The notes beneath the pieces are model-generated. The model was not told the origin of the DNA, searched no databases, and saw only the letters and a list, made by a program, of their open reading frames with translations. Both the position numbers and the translations under genes were made by a program. A stretch of 8,012 nt of DNA from Ktedonobacter sp. 13_1_20CM_4_53_11 (lineage in GTDB: Bacteria > Chloroflexota > Ktedonobacteria > Ktedonobacterales > Ktedonobacteraceae): assembly GCA_001919995.1 (NCBI GenBank), contig MNIY01000024.1, positions 1 to 8,012 of the forward strand. Direction: 5' to 3'. Positions 1 through 8,012 of this stretch are shown in pieces. Each line of letters begins with the position of its first letter. The first letter of the stretch is position 1.

Positions 1-1
1 A

Positions 2-304
2 GCTAAGAAAAGTGAAAATATAAGACGAGAAAATGAAAACATGAGGCGAGATTATTTCATGCGGGAGGGAATGCCTGTTAATGCCAAAGTCAGGGACGTG
101 GTGCTACACGAAGATCGCAAACAATATGAGGTTTTTGCCTCATGGCGTAGTCGTGAGACAGGAAGAGTATTTTACTTACATGAGATTTGTATGTTTCCGG
201 TGGACGCTGCTCCAGGATTTCAACCAAATATCGAAAGAGGAAGTATTATCACTGCCTGGATTATCCTGGACCAACCCGCTAGTTTTATAGATCAGAACTG
301 GTAG
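2..304 (+). CDS. C-terminal part of a DUF3592-like protein (5' end outside window)
   Basis: The frame is open from base 2 to the TAG at 302-304, so the gene probably begins upstream; the ATGs at 41, 59 and 71 have no well-spaced ribosome site. Visible residues begin with a very charged stretch rich in Lys, Arg, Glu and Asn, followed by REGMPVNAKV, then QYEVFASW, ETGRVFYL and a Pro- and Gly-containing end. The order (basic segment, Leu/Met-Arg-x-x-Gly-x-Pro-Val, Tyr-x-Val-x-Ala-x-Trp, Thr-Gly, closing beta strands) resembles the soluble domain of DUF3592-type membrane proteins, in which transmembrane helices come first. Those helices would lie outside the window. The family assignment is from memory of the motif pattern and is tentative; function is unknown. 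An overlapping frame starting at 81 looks much less protein-like. A terminator-like hairpin follows 22 bases after the stop. Confidence 0.6.
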   Translation, partial: AKKSENIRRENENMRRDYFMREGMPVNAKVRDVVLHEDRKQYEVFASWRSRETGRVFYLHEICMFPVDAAPGFQPNIERGSIITAWIILDQPASFIDQNW

Positions 305-326
305 GGGTACCTGGATGTGGGTAAAC

Positions 327-345
327 CATACAGGGCCCCTGTATG
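327..345 (+). terminator. Hairpin after the first gene, terminator-like
   Basis: CATACAGG (327-334) pairs perfectly with CCTGTATG (338-345) around a 3-base GCC loop, 22 bases after the stop codon at 304. There is no U-rich tract after it, so it is either a weak intrinsic terminator or an mRNA 3'-end stabiliser. Its right arm overlaps the start of the adjacent composite repeat. Confidence 0.4.
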
Positions 346-413
346 TCATCCTGAGCGCAGCGAAGGATCTGGCTCGACGAATGCACAGATCCTGAGCGCA
401 GCGAAGGATGACA
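344..413. repeat. Composite REP/MITE-like element, two copies of a 21-bp core
   Basis: The 21-bp core ATCCTGAGCGCAGCGAAGGAT is present twice without mismatch (348-368 and 389-409). The flanks are inverted relative to each other: TGTCATCCT (344-352) is complementary to AGGATGACA (405-413), and AGGATCTG (364-371) is complementary to CAGATCCT (386-393). The whole can fold as a long hairpin with two paired segments and an internal loop made by the two GAGCGCAGCGA cores. Cores of this kind are widespread intergenic repeats in some bacterial genomes; the tell-tale minus-strand translation FAALRMT is seen here. No coding role is likely. Confidence 0.8.
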
Positions 414-451
414 GCCATCATCTCCAAATGTCTATCTGCTATTCCCGAAGA

Positions 452-480
452 TTGCAAATTACTTCAAAATAATCTATACT
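452..480 (+). promoter_or_regulatory. Sigma70-type promoter of the HTH-Clp_N gene
   Basis: TTGCAA at 452-457 and TATACT at 475-480 are separated by exactly 17 bases, and each differs from consensus by one base. Transcription would begin near 487, giving a leader of about 40 bases before the ATG at 527. A purine-rich GAGAG (516-520) serves as ribosome site. Confidence 0.7.
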
Positions 481-526
481 ATTCTCAGACCTGTCAATTT
501 CATCGATATTATCAAGAGAGACACTT

Positions 527-1204
527 ATGGAACGTCTATTGACGACAGAAGAGGTCGCAGAATTGCTGCGGATCGACCCGGTGACGGTCAGGCGACTGGT
601 CACGCGCGGTGAATTGATCGCGTATCGCATCGCTGGCGAATACCGCTTCACCCCAGCGGGTGTCAAGGACTTCGTGGAGAACCAGCGGGTCGTCGTGAGC
701 ATGGGACCAGGGCCAAATCACCCGTATGCTAGATTCACTGAGCGAGCCCGCAAAGTGTTGTCGCTGGCGAATGAGGAAGCATACCGGTATAATCATGATG
801 GCGTCGGAACAGAGCATGTGTTGCTGGCGATCATGAGCGAGTGGGAGGGGGTCGGAGCCAGGGTACTGAACCGGTTAGAGGTGCAGCCGAGCGAGGTGCG
901 GAAGCAGATCGAAACGTTGCACCCGGCGGGGAAGCAGCCAGTGGGTGATAGCCAGCTTGTGATGACGCAGCAGGGGAAGGCGAGTATCGAACTGGCGGTA
1001 CAGGAGGCGCGCTCCCTTGGCCATCACTATATTGGAACGGAGCACCTGCTGCTGGGCCTGCTGCGCGAAGAAGAGAGTCTTGCCGGCCAGGTCTTGCTCA
1101 AGTCAGGCGTCACGCTTGAAAAGGCGCGCGAGCTTGTCAAGCAAGTGCTCGCGGAGGATCAAAAAACGAGTAAGCCTGAGTCGGAACAGCGCGTGGAGTC
1201 TTAA
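527..1204 (+). CDS. HTH (excisionase/MerR-like) protein fused to a double Clp_N domain
   Basis: A 225-residue protein of two parts. Residues about 3-51 form an excisionase-family helix-turn-helix (HTH_17 type): LTTEEVAELL, then VTVRRLVTRGELIAYRI, then EYRFTPAGVKDFV, the usual pattern for site-specific DNA binding. Residues about 70-208 carry two Clp_N repeats like those at the N terminus of ClpC/ClpB: the first around FTERARKVLSLANEEAY with GTEHVLLAIM (94-103), the second around KASIELAVQEARSLGHHYIG with GTEHLLLGLL (170-179). No Walker A/B AAA+ module follows, so it cannot unfold proteins itself. In Clp ATPases this domain binds adaptors and substrates; here it may sense a ligand or tagged protein and control transcription, or link to a ClpC machine. 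That role is inference. The start is supported by the promoter at 452-480 and GAGAG at 516-520. Its stop overlaps the Shine-Dalgarno site of the next small gene, so the two are probably co-transcribed. Confidence 0.9.
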   Translation: MERLLTTEEVAELLRIDPVTVRRLVTRGELIAYRIAGEYRFTPAGVKDFVENQRVVVSMGPGPNHPYARFTERARKVLSLANEEAYRYNHDGVGTEHVLLAIMSEWEGVGARVLNRLEVQPSEVRKQIETLHPAGKQPVGDSQLVMTQQGKASIELAVQEARSLGHHYIGTEHLLLGLLREEESLAGQVLLKSGVTLEKARELVKQVLAEDQKTSKPESEQRVES

Positions 1205-1218
1205 GGAGAACACGATCT

Positions 1219-1371
1219 ATGGCTACAAGAGGTACATTCCGCCAGTTATTGACCAATCTCGATCAACCTATGCCCCTTCCTGAGAAATTAAGCAAACTCA
1301 CGAGCAATCTCTGGCGGCGGGTAGTATTACGCCAGACCTGTTGCGGGCATCCTGGTGAACCGGGGTGTTGA
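1219..1371 (+). CDS. Small Cys-rich CCGHxGEPGC protein, possible selenoprotein
   Basis: A 50-residue protein to the first stop, too short for usual gene-calling cut-offs. TAAGGAG (1202-1208) overlaps the stop of the upstream gene, 10 bases before the ATG at 1219. Residues 1-37 form a basic, probably amphipathic helix; the end is the compact motif TCCGHPGEPGC. Short proteins with a similar CCGHxGEPGC ending occur, to my recollection, in Chloroflexota and Actinobacteria with no known function; the Cys and His residues suggest metal or redox chemistry. The stop at 1369-1371 is UGA directly after Cys50, and the frame then stays open for 22 codons ending in a strongly His-rich tail (taa at 1438-1440). 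If UGA is read as selenocysteine, the product is 73 residues with a Cys-Sec pair. If it is simply a stop, the gene ends here. Presence of a real gene is well supported; the recoding is not proven. Confidence 0.75.
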   Translation: MATRGTFRQLLTNLDQPMPLPEKLSKLTSNLWRRVVLRQTCCGHPGEPGC

Positions 1372-1440
1372 CAGGGGAGCGCACCGTCCGGTACGGATGG
1401 TCACAATCACACGCATCATGAGCATCATCATCACCAGTAA
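1372..1440 (+). other. In-frame His-rich extension beyond the UGA
   Basis: In the same frame as the small Cys-rich gene, 22 sense codons follow the UGA and end with TAA at 1438-1440. The first nine encode a small-residue linker rich in Gly, Ser and Pro; eight of the eleven residues encoded by 1402-1434 are His, with both CAC and CAT codons used. A metal-binding tail of this kind is typical of coding sequence rather than of random intergenic DNA, and it suggests that the frame either is or was translated through the UGA. Alternatives are a recent nonsense mutation of a Cys codon (TGT or TGC to TGA), or a chance CAT-rich run after a genuine stop. Confidence 0.5.
1383..1401 (+). promoter_or_regulatory. 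Candidate bacterial SECIS stem-loop
   Basis: ACCGUCC (1383-1389) pairs with GGAUGGU (1395-1401), giving seven base pairs including one G-U, closed by the loop GGUAC (1390-1394). Exactly 18 bases separate the UGA (1369-1371) from the GGU of the loop. In E. coli fdhF, as I recall it, the apical GGU also comes six codons after the UGA. Bacterial SECIS models require a short stem within the coding frame with a G at the start of the apical loop, and this meets both. It lacks the bulged U of the fdhF upper stem. A short GC-rich hairpin can arise by chance. Confidence 0.4.
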
Positions 1441-1642
1441 TGCTTCTGGCGTTTCTCAATGTAAATTGGTGAGTTCTGCAACGCTTTTTGAGGTTTCTGC
1501 GTGATAGAATGAGTTGGAAACGCCACTCGTTCTGGTACGCGCTTGTAGCATTGCCGATTGTCCCTCATGCTCTTGGAATAAGAGGATATACCCACTTGCC
1601 ATTTGCAAATAGCATCTGGTCCATAAGAGAAGGAGCGACAAC

Positions 1643-1792
1643 ATGACAATTCACACCCCCAGGATGGTTTGCGTTCAGTCTGAAAGCCTGCTCGACCGCT
1701 TGCGAGCTTCGGAGGACTCGGCCATCGAGATCGAGACGTGCAGCGCGCGCTGCTGCGTGAGGAGCGTCGATTCCCTGAACGAAAGGAGATAG
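1643..1792 (+). CDS. Small hypothetical ORF upstream of the PNPOx-like gene
   Basis: A 49-residue frame with a strong ribosome site, AAGGAG at 1630-1635, seven bases before the ATG. It ends at TAG 1790-1792, two bases before the next ATG at 1795, and its last codons contain that gene's Shine-Dalgarno site, so translation could be coupled. The product is Arg- and Glu-rich with a Cys cluster, CSARCC, near residues 33-38. I do not recognise a family. It may be a leader peptide or the remnant of a larger gene. A 45-residue frame at 1509-1646 overlaps its ATG by the four bases ATGA but has no ribosome site. Confidence 0.4.
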   Translation: MTIHTPRMVCVQSESLLDRLRASEDSAIEIETCSARCCVRSVDSLNERR

Positions 1793-1794
1793 TG

Positions 1795-2277
1795 ATGCCA
1801 ACCAGGCAAGGAGACATTGGTCTGCTTCGAGACCCGGTCGCCCAGCAATTGTTGCAGTCGAAGAGCCCTGCGCACCTGGCTTACACCTGGCGCGACGGCA
1901 CGCCCCGCGTCGTGCCCATCGGGTTCCACTGGAACGGGCAGGAGATCGTGCTGGCGACAGCGACGGATGCCCCGAAGACGAAGGTACTGAAGAATGGCTC
2001 AAAGGTGGCGGTGAGCATCGATCGTGACTCGTCGCCCCCCAAGATCCTCCTCATTCGGGGGACGGTGCGCATCGACACGGTCGAGGGCATCGCCCCCGAG
2101 TACGCCGCGATGATCCGCCGGACGATGGGCGAGGAAGACGGACAGGCCTTGCTCGATCAGGCGGCCCCCCTCTATCCGCGCATGACGCGCATCTTCATCC
2201 ATCCGGACTGGGTCGGGCTCCTGGACTTTGAGACGCGCCTCCCAAGTGCGGTTGAGCGCGCGATCGAACGGGCCTGA
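1795..2277 (+). CDS. Pyridoxamine 5'-phosphate oxidase family (PPOX-type split-barrel) protein
   Basis: A 160-residue protein. The ATG at 1795 is preferred over the in-frame GTG at 1738 because AAAGGAGAT (1782-1790) stands just before it and the family N terminus fits. After a short helix (about residues 7-24) comes the family pattern AHLAYTWRDGTPRVVPIGF (26-44), where an Asp-Gly turn joins two strands, then WNGQEIVLAT and KVLKNGSKVAVSID, all typical of the flavin-binding split barrel of Putative_PNPOx proteins. The C terminus (MTRIFIHPDWVGLLDFETR) supplies the last strands. Family members bind FMN or F420 and act as small cytoplasmic oxidoreductases; which cofactor and substrate are used here cannot be read from sequence. 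Only 38 bases separate it from the next gene, with no terminator between, so the two probably form an operon. Confidence 0.85.
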   Translation: MPTRQGDIGLLRDPVAQQLLQSKSPAHLAYTWRDGTPRVVPIGFHWNGQEIVLATATDAPKTKVLKNGSKVAVSIDRDSSPPKILLIRGTVRIDTVEGIAPEYAAMIRRTMGEEDGQALLDQAAPLYPRMTRIFIHPDWVGLLDFETRLPSAVERAIERA

Positions 2278-2315
2278 GCTGGCGCCCGCGAGAGTTTCTA
2301 AGGAGGTAACTGCTT

Positions 2316-2891
2316 ATGAGCAAAGTCGTTGTATTCACGAATCTGACGCTCGACGGGGTCATGCAGGCGCCGGGACGGCCGGACGAGGACCGCCGCGGCG
2401 GCTTTGAGCACGGCGGCTGGGCGACGCCCTACGCCGCGATGACTGCGGCCGGAGAGAGTACGCCCCACTTCGGTGCCCTGCTGCTTGGGCGCTGGACCTA
2501 CGAGGAATTTTACGCTTACTGGCCCAAGCAGAAGGACAGCCCCTTCTCGGCGAGGCTCGACAACCTACAGAAGTACGTGGCGTCCACGACGCTCTCTGAA
2601 CCGCTCCCGTGGATCAACTCCACGCTGCTGAAGGGCGATGCCGCAGAGGCTGTGGCCAGGCTCAAGGAGGAGCTGGACAAGGATCTCGTGATCATGGGCA
2701 GCGGAGAACTGGTCCAGTCGCTGATGCGGGCCAACCTCATCGACGAGTACGTGCTCCTCATCCACCCGCTGGTGCTGGGATCGGGACGCCGTCTCTTCCC
2801 CGAAGGCAGTGCCTTTGCCACTCTCCGGCTTGTCGGGGCCAAGACGACGAACACCGGCGTCGTGATCGCGACCTACGCAGCCACGCGTTGA
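2316..2891 (+). CDS. Dihydrofolate reductase family (RibD C-terminal domain) protein
   Basis: A 191-residue protein starting at an ATG with a near-perfect Shine-Dalgarno site, TAAGGAGGT (2299-2307). The family signature is complete: a first strand with NLTLDGVMQAP (residues 9-19), a Gly-rich polar stretch, LLLGRWTYEEFYAYWP, then the nucleotide-binding segment VIMGSGELVQSLMRANLIDE and HPLVLGSGRRLFPEG near the C terminus. RibD_C-type proteins use NAD(P)H; classical members reduce a riboflavin precursor or folate. Short single-domain homologues like this one are usually of unknown substrate and are often found near small regulators or other oxidoreductases. The PNPOx-like neighbour suggests a flavin- or pterin-linked reduction, by inference. 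Both genes look richer in G and C than the flanks, which may indicate acquisition from an actinobacterial-type donor. It is followed by a strong hairpin. Confidence 0.88.
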   Translation: MSKVVVFTNLTLDGVMQAPGRPDEDRRGGFEHGGWATPYAAMTAAGESTPHFGALLLGRWTYEEFYAYWPKQKDSPFSARLDNLQKYVASTTLSEPLPWINSTLLKGDAAEAVARLKEELDKDLVIMGSGELVQSLMRANLIDEYVLLIHPLVLGSGRRLFPEGSAFATLRLVGAKTTNTGVVIATYAATR

Positions 2892-2964
2892 GCGTCAATC
2901 CTCACATCCTGAGAGCGGAATCGGTAGAACTATCCTGGTCTCAAACATTACAGGATTGAAGATG

Positions 2965-3011
2965 GAGAAGCACCTGTGGTTGCAGTTTCACCGCAACCAC
3001 AGGTGCTTCTC
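2965..3011. terminator. Bidirectional terminator-like hairpin between convergent genes
   Basis: GAGAAGCACCTGTGGTTGC (2965-2983) pairs perfectly over 19 bases with 2993-3011 around a 9-base loop, and G-U/A-U pairs can extend it three further. It lies between the ends of two convergent genes (stops at 2891 plus and 3020 minus), where a shared terminator is expected. Neither side has a good U-tract, so termination may depend on the very stable stem or on another factor. Confidence 0.75.
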
Positions 3012-3019
3012 TGTATAAT

Positions 3020-5803
<2,784 letters not shown>

Positions 5804-5808
5804 AATAT

Positions 5809-5814
5809 CCTCCC
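5809..5814 (-). promoter_or_regulatory. Ribosome binding site that favours the TTG start of ppdK
   Basis: GGGAGG on the minus strand, with a 5-base gap to the TTG at 5803-5801. The in-frame ATG 24 bases upstream has only CAGAAACC before it. The site would lie inside the coding region if the ATG were used. Confidence 0.6.
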
Positions 5815-5852
5815 AAACATGCTCCATTAGGTTTCTGGTTCGTACACAAAAG

Positions 5853-6407
5853 TTACGGACCTAAGACAATACCTCTAGCCCAACGCAATACTTGACGAGC
5901 ACTTTTTATATAACTTTCGGCCTGGTACGCGCTAATAACCCCATCGGCTTCTTCTGGCGGTGTATCGACGTAGAAGGCTTCAGGGTGAAATGGCGATAGC
6001 CTGGCCATCTCATCTTGTATCTCTTCCGGCGCACCAACTGTTGCGCCCAGCGCGCGCAGGTCATGGTCGTACATGGACCTGCGGCCGAAACGGAGTAGAC
6101 TGACTGCTTGCGCGGCTTTTTCTGCTACCTGGTTGCAGTAGTCGACGCAGGCAAAGTGCCTTCCCAAACTTAGTTCCAGTCCCGCGGTCGCCATATCCTG
6201 TGCGGCCTCGGCGTATAGCCCTATCGCCCCCTGTGTATCGCCGCCATGGTGAACTTCCTTGTCCTCATCGTCTGTTTTCTTTGAGCCCGGTGACACGGGT
6301 GAAACTGCTGGTTGGTCGAAACTAACTCCTTCTGTAAGTAGTCGTTTCAGTTCATCGATGCTACTGTCATCAGCATTAGCGGAGTTGCCGTTCTGTCTTT
6401 GCGACAT
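5853..6407 (-). CDS. HEPN domain protein
   Basis: A 184-residue protein. The first 60 or so residues are polar, acidic and probably disordered. Residues about 66-181 match the HEPN four-helix pattern: an amphipathic helix at AEAAQDMATAGLEL, the ACVDYCNQVAEKAAQAVSLL helix (86-105) where HEPN proteins carry the Gln-x-x-x-Glu-Lys-x-x-Lys-type motif, YDHDLRALG (113-121) with the characteristic His-Asp, and a final AESYIKSARQVLRWAR helix. The R-x4-6-H RNase motif expected on the last helix is absent, although R110 to H115 has that spacing earlier. RNA cleavage is therefore unlikely; nucleotide binding or protein interaction is more plausible, as in HEPN proteins with metabolic neighbours. GAGGAT before ATG 6407 is the ribosome site. 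It is upstream of ppdK on the same strand with a 49-base gap, so probably in one operon; a role related to ppdK is inference. Confidence 0.8.
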   Translation of the reverse strand: MSQRQNGNSANADDSSIDELKRLLTEGVSFDQPAVSPVSPGSKKTDDEDKEVHHGGDTQGAIGLYAEAAQDMATAGLELSLGRHFACVDYCNQVAEKAAQAVSLLRFGRRSMYDHDLRALGATVGAPEEIQDEMARLSPFHPEAFYVDTPPEEADGVISAYQAESYIKSARQVLRWARGIVLGP

Positions 6408-6516
6408 AGTATTTGATCCTCAAGGCGATGCAGGCCAGGGCAACCGCAAGGCTCCCCCTACTATACACGTTGGCCATACACGTTAGCGTTTCTTTATACG
6501 GCGTCATGAACTCCAT
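6376..6516 (-). CDS. Possible 46-residue membrane leader ORF before the HEPN gene
   Basis: A short frame in the leader of the HEPN transcript. ATG at 6516-6514 follows AGGA by seven bases, and the stop at 6376 lies 32 bases inside the HEPN frame. The middle, GSLAVALACIALRIKYYV, is a hydrophobic stretch long enough for one membrane pass, followed by a basic end. The frame also extends upstream to a TTG at 6612, but that overlaps the predicted -35 element and is not usable from this promoter. It could be a regulatory leader peptide or chance; no homologue is recognised. Confidence 0.22.
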   Translation of the reverse strand: MEFMTPYKETLTCMANVYSRGSLAVALACIALRIKYYVAKTERQLR

Positions 6517-6537
6517 GGTTTTGTCCTGGTTTTTGGT

Positions 6538-6551
6538 AGAACCATGGTTCT
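6538..6551. promoter_or_regulatory. 14-bp perfect palindrome, candidate operator
   Basis: AGAACCATGGTTCT reads the same on both strands. It lies about 30 bases downstream of the predicted start point of the HEPN-ppdK transcript, where a dimeric repressor could block elongation. A related AACCATGG lies about 30 bases further along the transcript (6514-6521). Confidence 0.35.
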
Positions 6552-6583
6552 GAACAACGATTGCGTTTTCAGGTACCTTGTTT

Positions 6584-6612
6584 ATATTATTCCCGAGAGT
6601 GCTTTGTGTCAA
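6584..6612 (-). promoter_or_regulatory. Consensus sigma70 promoter for the HEPN-ppdK operon
   Basis: On the minus strand a perfect TTGACA (6612-6607) is followed after exactly 17 bases by TAATAT (6589-6584). Transcription would begin near 6577 and give a leader of about 170 bases before the HEPN ATG at 6407. No other comparable promoter lies between the HEPN gene and ppdK, so this promoter probably serves both. Confidence 0.75.
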
Positions 6613-6655
6613 TGTTTATAGGAGGGAAAATCGTTGAGGGCTGGTAGGGAGCTTT

Positions 6656-6701
6656 CAGAGAGAAGTATTTAAGAAACTACATAGTTTCGCGTTTCTCTCT
6701 G
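6656..6701. repeat. Nested inverted repeat
   Basis: CAGAGAGAA (6656-6664) pairs with TTCTCTCTG (6693-6701), and inside it GAAACTA (6673-6679) mirrors TAGTTTC (6682-6688). The two stems can stack as one 46-base structured element. It stands upstream of the HEPN promoter, so it could be an operator, or the end of an RNA read on the plus strand. Confidence 0.5.
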
Positions 6702-6703
6702 TT

Positions 6704-6753
6704 GTCTTACATTAGAATTATGGCAACTAGATATATATTGTCTTATGTAAGAC
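6704..6753. repeat. Inverted repeat with two competing pairings
   Basis: GTCTTACAT (6704-6712) is perfectly complementary to ATGTAAGAC (6745-6753). The right arm can instead pair locally, GTCTTA (6740-6745) with TAAGAC (6748-6753). Such mutually exclusive folds occur in attenuators, but the region is AT-rich and chance is possible. Confidence 0.35.
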
Positions 6754-6803
6754 TAAAACATTGTCTTCTCTAAGGATGACGTTTTGTCCCTGGTTTACTC
6801 AGA

Positions 6804-6900
6804 AGTACTATTTACCACAAGCATTGTTAACCAGAGGAGAGGCCGCTCGATTTACTATTGAGTGCTATTTATCACAAGTATTATTCACCGGGGGCCGCTT
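6804..6900. repeat. Imperfect tandem duplication, 57-bp period
   Basis: The first 30 bases of the unit starting at 6804 match those starting at 6861 at 24 positions; most of the differences are transitions. A GGCCGCT block follows in both units at slightly different spacing. An old duplication that has drifted. Confidence 0.5.
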
Positions 6901-7120
6901 GAGAGCTTCATTTGCGCGTTTTCTCTTGCCGTCGCTTTACATTAGAGCTATGGCAAGTACATAAAAATATTGTTTTTTCATCTATAAGTGTTCGGGGGAA
7001 GCGCAGAAGAATGTGCATCGGTTAAACTTATCATTGTTGAGCTATGCTTATTTTCTAAAAAACAGGTGTCCAAACAGAGCGTGAGACCCACTGGTGTGCC
7101 ATACTCTCCGTCGAAAACGT

Positions 7121-7126
7121 TATACT
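7121..7126 (+). promoter_or_regulatory. Possible -10 element for the exported-protein gene
   Basis: TATACT lies 14 bases before the ribosome site AAAGGAG (7140-7146). No good -35 hexamer stands 16-18 bases upstream, so an activator or another sigma factor would be required. A further candidate, TTTACA at 6936-6941 with a weak CATAAA downstream, would give a leader of nearly 200 bases. Confidence 0.3.
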
Positions 7127-7153
7127 TCATTTAACACGCAAAGGAGCAAATCA

Positions 7154-8012
7154 TTGAAAAAAGGACTCTTGCTGTTACTAGGATTCATGGGAATCATAGC
7201 AATAGCGCTGCTGCCGGCAGCCATCTCTGCGGTAGCATCTAACGGAACTGCCAAATCCCATCCGGTTCATATCTTTCCGCACAAAGGTCACACTCTACAG
7301 GGTACGAGTGTCTCGCGGGCAGCCAGCAGCTCTGCCAGCCCCAACGTTACTTACCACACTGGTCCCGTCATGGCCGGTACCACAAATGTCTATACTATTT
7401 TCTGGGAGCCAACAAGTAATGTATCTACCAACTACAATAACCTGATTAAGCGCTACTTCGGTGACGTTGGCAGCAGCCCCCTGTACAAGGTTAATAACCA
7501 GTACACACAGACGGGTAATGCATTTCCCTCTAACGCTGTGCTGGCCGGTTCCTGGGTGGATACGATCGCGTATCCCAATAGTCCTTTGCTCGACAGTAAT
7601 ATCCAGGCCGAAGTCACTCGTGCGCAAAAAAACAATAACGGTTGGACATCAGGTATCAACAATATTTTCTTTGTCTTCACCGAGAGAAATCAGGACATCT
7701 GCATTGACAATACACAACAGTGCGCGTCCAATACCTTCTGCGCGTATCATAGCTTTTTTGGTACGAACACCATTTATGCTACGATGCCTTATGCTGCGAG
7801 CTTCAGTTGCGATCCCGGCTCCAGCCCCAACAAAGACGACGCCGACCAGACTATCAACGTGACCTCGCACGAGCAGATGGAAGCGGCGACCGATCCCTTG
7901 CTCAATGGCTGGTATTACACCATCAACAATCAGAACTATGAGATCGGCGATCTATGTGCCTGGACGTTTGGACCGGGCAATCTCCAGGGCGCGGACGTGC
8001 TCTGGAACAAGG
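7154..8012 (+). CDS. Exported EXORDIUM/Phi_1-like protein (3' end outside window)
   Basis: The frame starts at TTG 7154-7156, seven bases after AAAGGAG (7140-7146), and is open for 286 codons to the window edge. Residues 1-28 are a Sec signal peptide: KKG, a long hydrophobic core of Leu, Ile and Ala, and AVA before a likely cleavage after residue 28. The mature part begins with a His- and Ser-rich linker, then VTYHTGPVMAG and NVYTIFW, which resemble the start of EXORDIUM (Phi_1) proteins; next come NLIKRYFGDVGSSP, IFFVFTERNQDIC and NTFCAYHSFFG, and later SHEQMEAATDP (238-248) and EIGDLCAW. Five Cys residues suggest disulfides outside the cell. The family match comes from remembered pattern order and is moderate. 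In plants these proteins are cell-wall growth regulators; bacterial members are of unknown function. His-Glu-x-x-Glu could be a metal site but is not a proven protease motif. Confidence 0.8.
   Translation, partial: MKKGLLLLLGFMGIIAIALLPAAISAVASNGTAKSHPVHIFPHKGHTLQGTSVSRAASSSASPNVTYHTGPVMAGTTNVYTIFWEPTSNVSTNYNNLIKRYFGDVGSSPLYKVNNQYTQTGNAFPSNAVLAGSWVDTIAYPNSPLLDSNIQAEVTRAQKNNNGWTSGINNIFFVFTERNQDICIDNTQQCASNTFCAYHSFFGTNTIYATMPYAASFSCDPGSSPNKDDADQTINVTSHEQMEAATDPLLNGWYYTINNQNYEIGDLCAWTFGPGNLQGADVLWNK

Follow-up and report, generated by a model that had tools for sequence, protein, structure and literature searches.

A UGA codon in a Ktedonobacter contig very probably encodes selenocysteine in a small CCGHPGEPGC-Sec protein family

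The window analysed here is an 8,012-nt stretch of DNA from Ktedonobacter sp. 13_1_20CM_4_53_11 (contig MNIY01000024.1, positions 1 to 8,012). Its frame at 1219-1440 reads MATRGTFRQLLTNLDQPMPLPEKLSKLTSNLWRRVVLRQTCCGHPGEPGC-U-QGSAPSGTDGHNHTHHEHHHHQ*, 73 residues in all, in which a UGA at 1369-1371 directly follows GEPGC and is itself followed by 22 open codons and a TAA at 1438-1440, with eight His within eleven residues of the read-through tail. The first-pass annotation, which proposed this gene as a candidate selenoprotein, had described each of these elements, and every one proved exact. The features at the locus are as follows.

527 to 1204, plus strand: upstream gene with HTH_17 and Clp_N domains, stopping 14 nt 5' of the selenoprotein gene
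1203 to 1208, plus strand: putative ribosome-binding site AAGGAG, 10 nt 5' of the ATG, read from the sequence
1219 to 1440, plus strand: probable selenoprotein gene of 73 codons including Sec, then TAA (from translation and homologues)
1339 to 1371, plus strand: conserved motif CCGHPGEPGC-Sec, residues 41-51 (from the 26-row alignment A4)
1369 to 1371, plus strand: UGA very probably read as selenocysteine (from codon counts at homologous sites and Sec machinery in relatives)
1372 to 1437, plus strand: tail after Sec, 22 codons with a His-rich end (from frame-specific His and the Trp/Gly forms)
1383 to 1401, plus strand: putative SECIS hairpin ACCGUCCG-GUA-CGGAUGGU, loop at 1391-1393, 19 nt past the UGA

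The product of the upstream gene combines an excisionase-type helix-turn-helix with a Clp N-terminal domain but lacks the Clp ATPase. Co-transcription of this gene with the selenoprotein gene is possible, and it is not common to the relatives, as far as seen.

The codon at the UGA position was read at 103 distinct homologous sites, which comprise the window, the stretches from a scan of species genomes (151 encoding stretches, 80 kept) and the loci from a survey of 400 genomes from the phylum of G001. Left out were L016, which runs off its contig, L081, which is a SelA locus, L096, whose motif the search pattern missed, and the duplicates L082, L084, L088, L090 and L094; 10 of the 40 family genomes of the survey yielded no locus, and the codons there are unread. 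GEPGC is followed by TGA at 94 of the 103 sites and by a Cys codon at nine (five TGT and four TGC). The first-pass annotation had named Cys homologues as the thing to look for, and varied stop codons after GEPGC as the sign of an ordinary stop; the former were found, and neither TAA nor TAG occurs at any of the 103 sites. A chance stop is thus disfavoured, since TGA ends merely 377 of the 801 mechanical open reading frames longer than 150 codons in the fetched loci, against 260 for TAG and 164 for TAA.

Protein databases present the family differently. A search with the read-through product returned 402 proteins at E up to 1, and among the 120 of them listed, 114 end at GEPGC, four carry Trp and one Gly at the UGA position, and one lacks the motif. 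A profile search returned 2473 protein clusters at E up to 0.001, and the 120 of these that are listed comprise 94 that stop at GEPGC, 25 that go on with Cys and one that goes on with Trp. Across the 240 listed proteins of both searches, Trp therefore stands at the site five times and Gly once, and these members with an open frame are P0007, P0011, P0012, P0013, P0015 and P0175. The five Trp/Gly proteins of the read-through search have in common a tail that follows the pattern [WG][KR]....SGS[DE] and becomes rich in His towards its end, and this common tail was the earliest sign that the sequence past the UGA is coding. Judged from their protein sequences, the Trp and Gly forms may have lost Sec or may reflect errors in the sequence. 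The columns that never vary in the 26-row alignment A4 are C41, C42, G43, G46, E47, P48, G49, C50 and column 51, which holds Sec or Cys (row L022 extends beyond a second TGA through a coordinate slip).

Beyond the Sec position the family is variable. Past Sec, the frame at the 94 TGA sites stays open for 1-31 codons (median 12) before the next stop of any kind, which is TGA again in 31 of them; Sec is followed by Q in 33 cases and by E in 31. The branch to which the window belongs (17 loci: the window, L001-L015 and L083) has a tail that appears to be translated, as its 12 codons past the hairpin encode 72 His when read in the UGA frame versus 7 and 4 in the other two, with at least one His in each of the 17 tails. 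The best-conserved part of the tail in this branch, SG[ST]D, overlaps the SECIS hairpin, so that tail conservation is partly at the RNA level. The conserved His-rich tail that had been predicted thus holds for the window's branch and fails as a family-wide trait, being absent from much of the family.

According to a review (PMC13188914), the bacterial SECIS model places a G at the opening of a small apical loop, 16-37 nt past the UGA, and the loop in the window, 19 nt after the UGA, lies inside this range. We scanned the 60 nt after the codon for hairpins with at least four contiguous pairs and a G in the first two loop positions, allowing the loop to start 13-37 nt downstream and using a main cut-off of -4 kcal/mol or lower. 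Such a hairpin is present at 90 of the 94 TGA sites and at none of the nine Cys sites, as compared with 118 of 370 ordinary TGA stops from the same loci, which are matched in GC content (0.585 versus 0.593 at the TGA sites) and some of which are not real genes, because they are the ends of mechanical open reading frames on both strands. The TGA sites below the threshold are L020, L021, L073 and L093 (the last at -3.5). At -3 kcal/mol, 87 of the 91 family hairpins have a loop that starts 17-22 nt past the UGA, whereas in the control stops the loop starts are scattered across 13-37 nt; the family loops are mostly variants of (C)GGU. Two Cys copies, L050 and L063, have a weaker hairpin trace (-2.4 and -2.1), and in both a UGA lies two codons after the Cys.

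Covariation in the stem points the same way. In alignment A2, which holds 21 of the 94 TGA sites picked for a hairpin in one register, 85.7% of cells are paired versus a shuffled mean of 70.6%, six of the eight pairs have changed in both partners, and covariation scores 0.454 versus 0.187 in shuffles and 0.06 to 0.21 in slid controls. None of 500 shuffles matches the percentage paired, the number of double-change cells or the score, while 19 of 500 have as many doubly changed pairs and 42 of 500 as many pair types, with the caveat that kinship among sequences can beat shuffles even without structure. Taken by itself, the window hairpin is no more stable than its shuffles (z -0.46), and an Rfam scan of window 1200-1700 returned nothing.

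The Sec machinery follows the codon. SelB, SelA and tRNA-Sec were sought in 50 of 80 genomes, hand-picked with their codons already known and including all eight Cys loci. SelB above the cut-off is present in 40 of 42 TGA genomes and one of eight Cys genomes, SelA at E below 1e-30 likewise in 40 of 42 and one of eight, and at least one of the two in all 42 TGA genomes versus one of the eight. A tRNA-Sec above 60 bits was found in 36 of 42 TGA genomes and one of eight Cys genomes; this line is our own, set where the scores drop from 63.1 to 54.7 bits, and weaker matches occur in 14 of 14 control genomes, five of which pass Rfam's own cut-off. The corresponding Fisher p values are 2.8e-6 (SelB), 8e-8 (SelA or SelB) and 1.2e-4 (tRNA-Sec), which overstate independence because the genomes are related. 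The Sec/Cys exchange suggested by the first-pass annotation is borne out, in that seven of the eight tested cases with Cys at the UGA position lie in genomes without SelA and SelB; the converse case is G040, which has the Cys copy L063 despite carrying SelA, SelB and tRNA-Sec. In the 400-genome survey the family occurs in 40 genomes, and SelB at 1e-70 is present in 38 of these 40 versus 268 of the 360 others (p 0.0026), an association that is only moderate because SelB is common in the phylum (306 of 400). The two family genomes without SelB are G132, which has a Cys copy, and G391, which has a TGA copy. G391, in which neither SelB at 1e-70, nor SelA, nor a tRNA-Sec above 60 bits was found, is a clear counterexample to the machinery pattern; it may be an incomplete bin.

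The check for selA, selB and selC was run in close relatives of the host. The pyruvate phosphate dikinase (PPDK) of the window has its best match at 86% (G158), and its 37 best rows all fall within the 47 genomes of G001's class, of which 41 have SelB. Among the five closest of the surveyed genomes by PPDK (G158, G393, G334, G261 and G306), SelB is present in all but G306, and G158, G393 and G334 carry SelA and tRNA-Sec besides SelB.

Together, the codon, hairpin, machinery and frame-specific His evidence strongly supports the candidate selenoprotein, and on these comparisons of sequence the UGA at 1369-1371 is very probably a selenocysteine codon, a statement that concerns insertion and not function. 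If so, the window gene would belong to a common small selenoprotein whose database entries stop short at its key residue. SelB carrying Sec-tRNA would bind the hairpin past the UGA, as we infer from the established bacterial mechanism, and insertion of Sec would yield CCGHPGEPGCU with an adjoining Cys-Sec pair, which would be carried by a flexible arm at the C-terminus, preceded by two short helices. Cys takes the place of the UGA mostly in genomes that lack the Sec machinery.

The window gene appears to be a member of a small selenoprotein family for which we found neither a model nor a name. Scans of 26 members against Pfam and NCBIfam gave only stray matches (one in NCBIfam at E 0.16, three in Pfam at E 0.1 or above). 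Three members (P0159, P0172 and P0177) are called 'predicted DCC family thiol-disulfide oxidoreductase YuxK' by one source, a naming that finds no Pfam support on the members scanned. The closest systems share single traits with the family. The arm of mammalian thioredoxin reductase, a C-terminal GCUG that is part of a flavoprotein, likewise presents Gly-Cys-Sec on a flexible C-terminus, whereas in the window family this arm forms part of a stand-alone protein of about 50-75 residues; the comparison is one of working principle, and no homology is claimed. The family contains neither CxxU nor UxxC, the motifs of thioredoxin-fold selenoproteins, its motif being GCU. The KCU-star/DUF466 selenoproteins (NF033934) presumably end at Sec, whereas the window family has CCGHPGEPGCU and a tail past Sec, and none of the 26 members matches the NCBIfam model. 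They are, according to the review, likewise small with a CU motif (PMC13188914). The Cys-Cys-COOH selenoprotein SaoC (NF040734) also has a CU motif, and the review table presents the Sao genes as a system (PMC13188914), whereas the window family has no match to that model and no conserved neighbourhood. The CC/Se motif family (NF041239), whose members are hypothetical proteins also listed as predicted selenoproteins, differs in having a CxxU motif where the window family has GCU, without a model match. The accessible part of a review table of 119 selenoprotein families (PMC13188914) holds no entry that fits by name or motif, and a literature search for the CCGHPGEPGC-Sec motif returned no paper, although a prior listing is possible.

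Two AlphaFold2 predictions reached a mean pLDDT of 58.3 and 57.1, and the fold suggested at this low confidence consists of two short helices and a disordered Cys/Sec arm. Foldseek with the first model gave nothing at E 0.001, and a sequence search of the PDB gave one match at E 0.45 and hence no solved relative. Nor was a conserved partner gene found in the 540 mechanical open reading frames around the 103 sites. The neighbours below were picked by eye for the Pfam scan and are raw counts without a base rate: one cluster of FAD disulfide reductases adjoins 7 of the 103 loci (Pfam-checked at L087, L034 and L050), lying about 62 nt downstream on the same strand at L087 and L089, and rubrerythrin-type proteins adjoin L042, L060 and L071 (Pfam-checked at L042 and L060). 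The neighbours of L062 are MsrA and a heliorhodopsin. Heliorhodopsin genes lie 54-58 nt downstream on the same strand at L052 (2010-2774), L062 (3188-3985) and L079, as assigned by Pfam for L052 and L062 and by cluster membership for L079.

The chances are about even that the Cys-Sec pair forms a selenylsulfide and takes part in thiol/selenol redox transfer; otherwise it would serve as a soft-metal or metalloid ligand. Given the scattered redox neighbours, we consider thiol/selenol redox slightly more probable than metal binding alone. A selenoprotein for metal or metalloid binding or trafficking, with no role in redox catalysis, is the rival that survives best, and we regard it as a serious if minority possibility. 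The short arm offers four Cys/Sec-type ligands plus His, the His-rich tail of the window's branch would bring additional metal binding, and L051 adjoins a gene that, judged from its sequence, looks like a copper-type ATPase; however, much of the family has no such tail, some neighbours are redox proteins (the FAD disulfide reductases, rubrerythrin and MsrA), and no neighbour is conserved. On the redox side, we speculate that the Cys-Sec arm might carry electrons as a selenylsulfide, either diffusing or docking, and that its reductants might be flavoprotein disulfide reductases like the ones that adjoin it in a few genomes, although we think this rather unlikely. Such a carrier would in effect be a detached thioredoxin-reductase tail, a free-standing, non-thioredoxin protein of about 50-75 residues, and this picture is just as tentative.

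Two further readings deny that the UGA is a selenocysteine codon at all. Either a near-cognate tRNA or programmed read-through could place Trp, or some other common residue, at the codon and so yield a low-level tailed form, as the five Trp and one Gly among the listed proteins might suggest; yet the replacement in the genome loci is Cys in nine of nine, mostly without SelA and SelB, the hairpin is lost along with the Sec codon, and the Trp and Gly forms look like possible later losses, so that we hold this to be highly improbable. An ordinary stop, with the annotated 50-residue product and a tail open by chance, agrees with the many listed proteins annotated to end at GEPGC and with the unremarkable stability of the window hairpin by itself, but is the least probable reading and is rejected on the absence of TAA and TAG beside nine Cys codons, on a hairpin and Sec machinery that track the TGA state, and on His enriched solely in the read-through frame.

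The family is common in Chloroflexota and extends to other phyla. By their titles the 80 kept stretches represent several classes of Chloroflexota together with Deltaproteobacteria, Nitrospirota, Coriobacteriia and some other groups, and the plasmid records searched gave no match. The closest protein among the matches listed is from a Ktedonobacteraceae metagenome-assembled genome; the family is patchy within the window's own class, as only one of its 47 surveyed genomes carries it. A copy in a cultured organism, Dehalogenimonas lykanthroporepellens (P0148), is annotated with 47 residues stopping at GEPGC; it equals L093 in protein sequence, and the L093 genome (G124) has SelB, SelA and tRNA-Sec. 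Genes reported for the related Dehalogenimonas alkenigignens include selC, one for a Sec elongation factor, and SelD and formate dehydrogenase genes that contain UGA (PMC4918011).

Most of the 240 listed members would be recorded without their key Sec residue, and the family may be one of the more common selenoproteins of environmental bacteria to have escaped recognition. Among selenoprotein scaffolds it would provide one that appears unlike the thioredoxin fold and, in its Sec, Cys and Trp/Gly forms, a natural series for the study of selenocysteine loss, with P0148 as a target available in culture.

Elsewhere in the window, a repeat-rich stretch at about 340-415 holds TCCTGAGCGCAGCGAAGGAT twice, flanked by inverted TGTCATCCT and AGGATGACA (by eye), and looks like a palindromic repeat element. 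At about 6680-6960, within the large intergenic region, lie AT-rich GTTTCTCTCTGTTGTCTTACATTAGAATTATGGCAA and a similar diverged copy, also by eye. At 7154-8011 lies, in this bacterium, the start of a secreted-looking protein with a Phi_1 (phosphate-induced protein) domain, which is known from plants.
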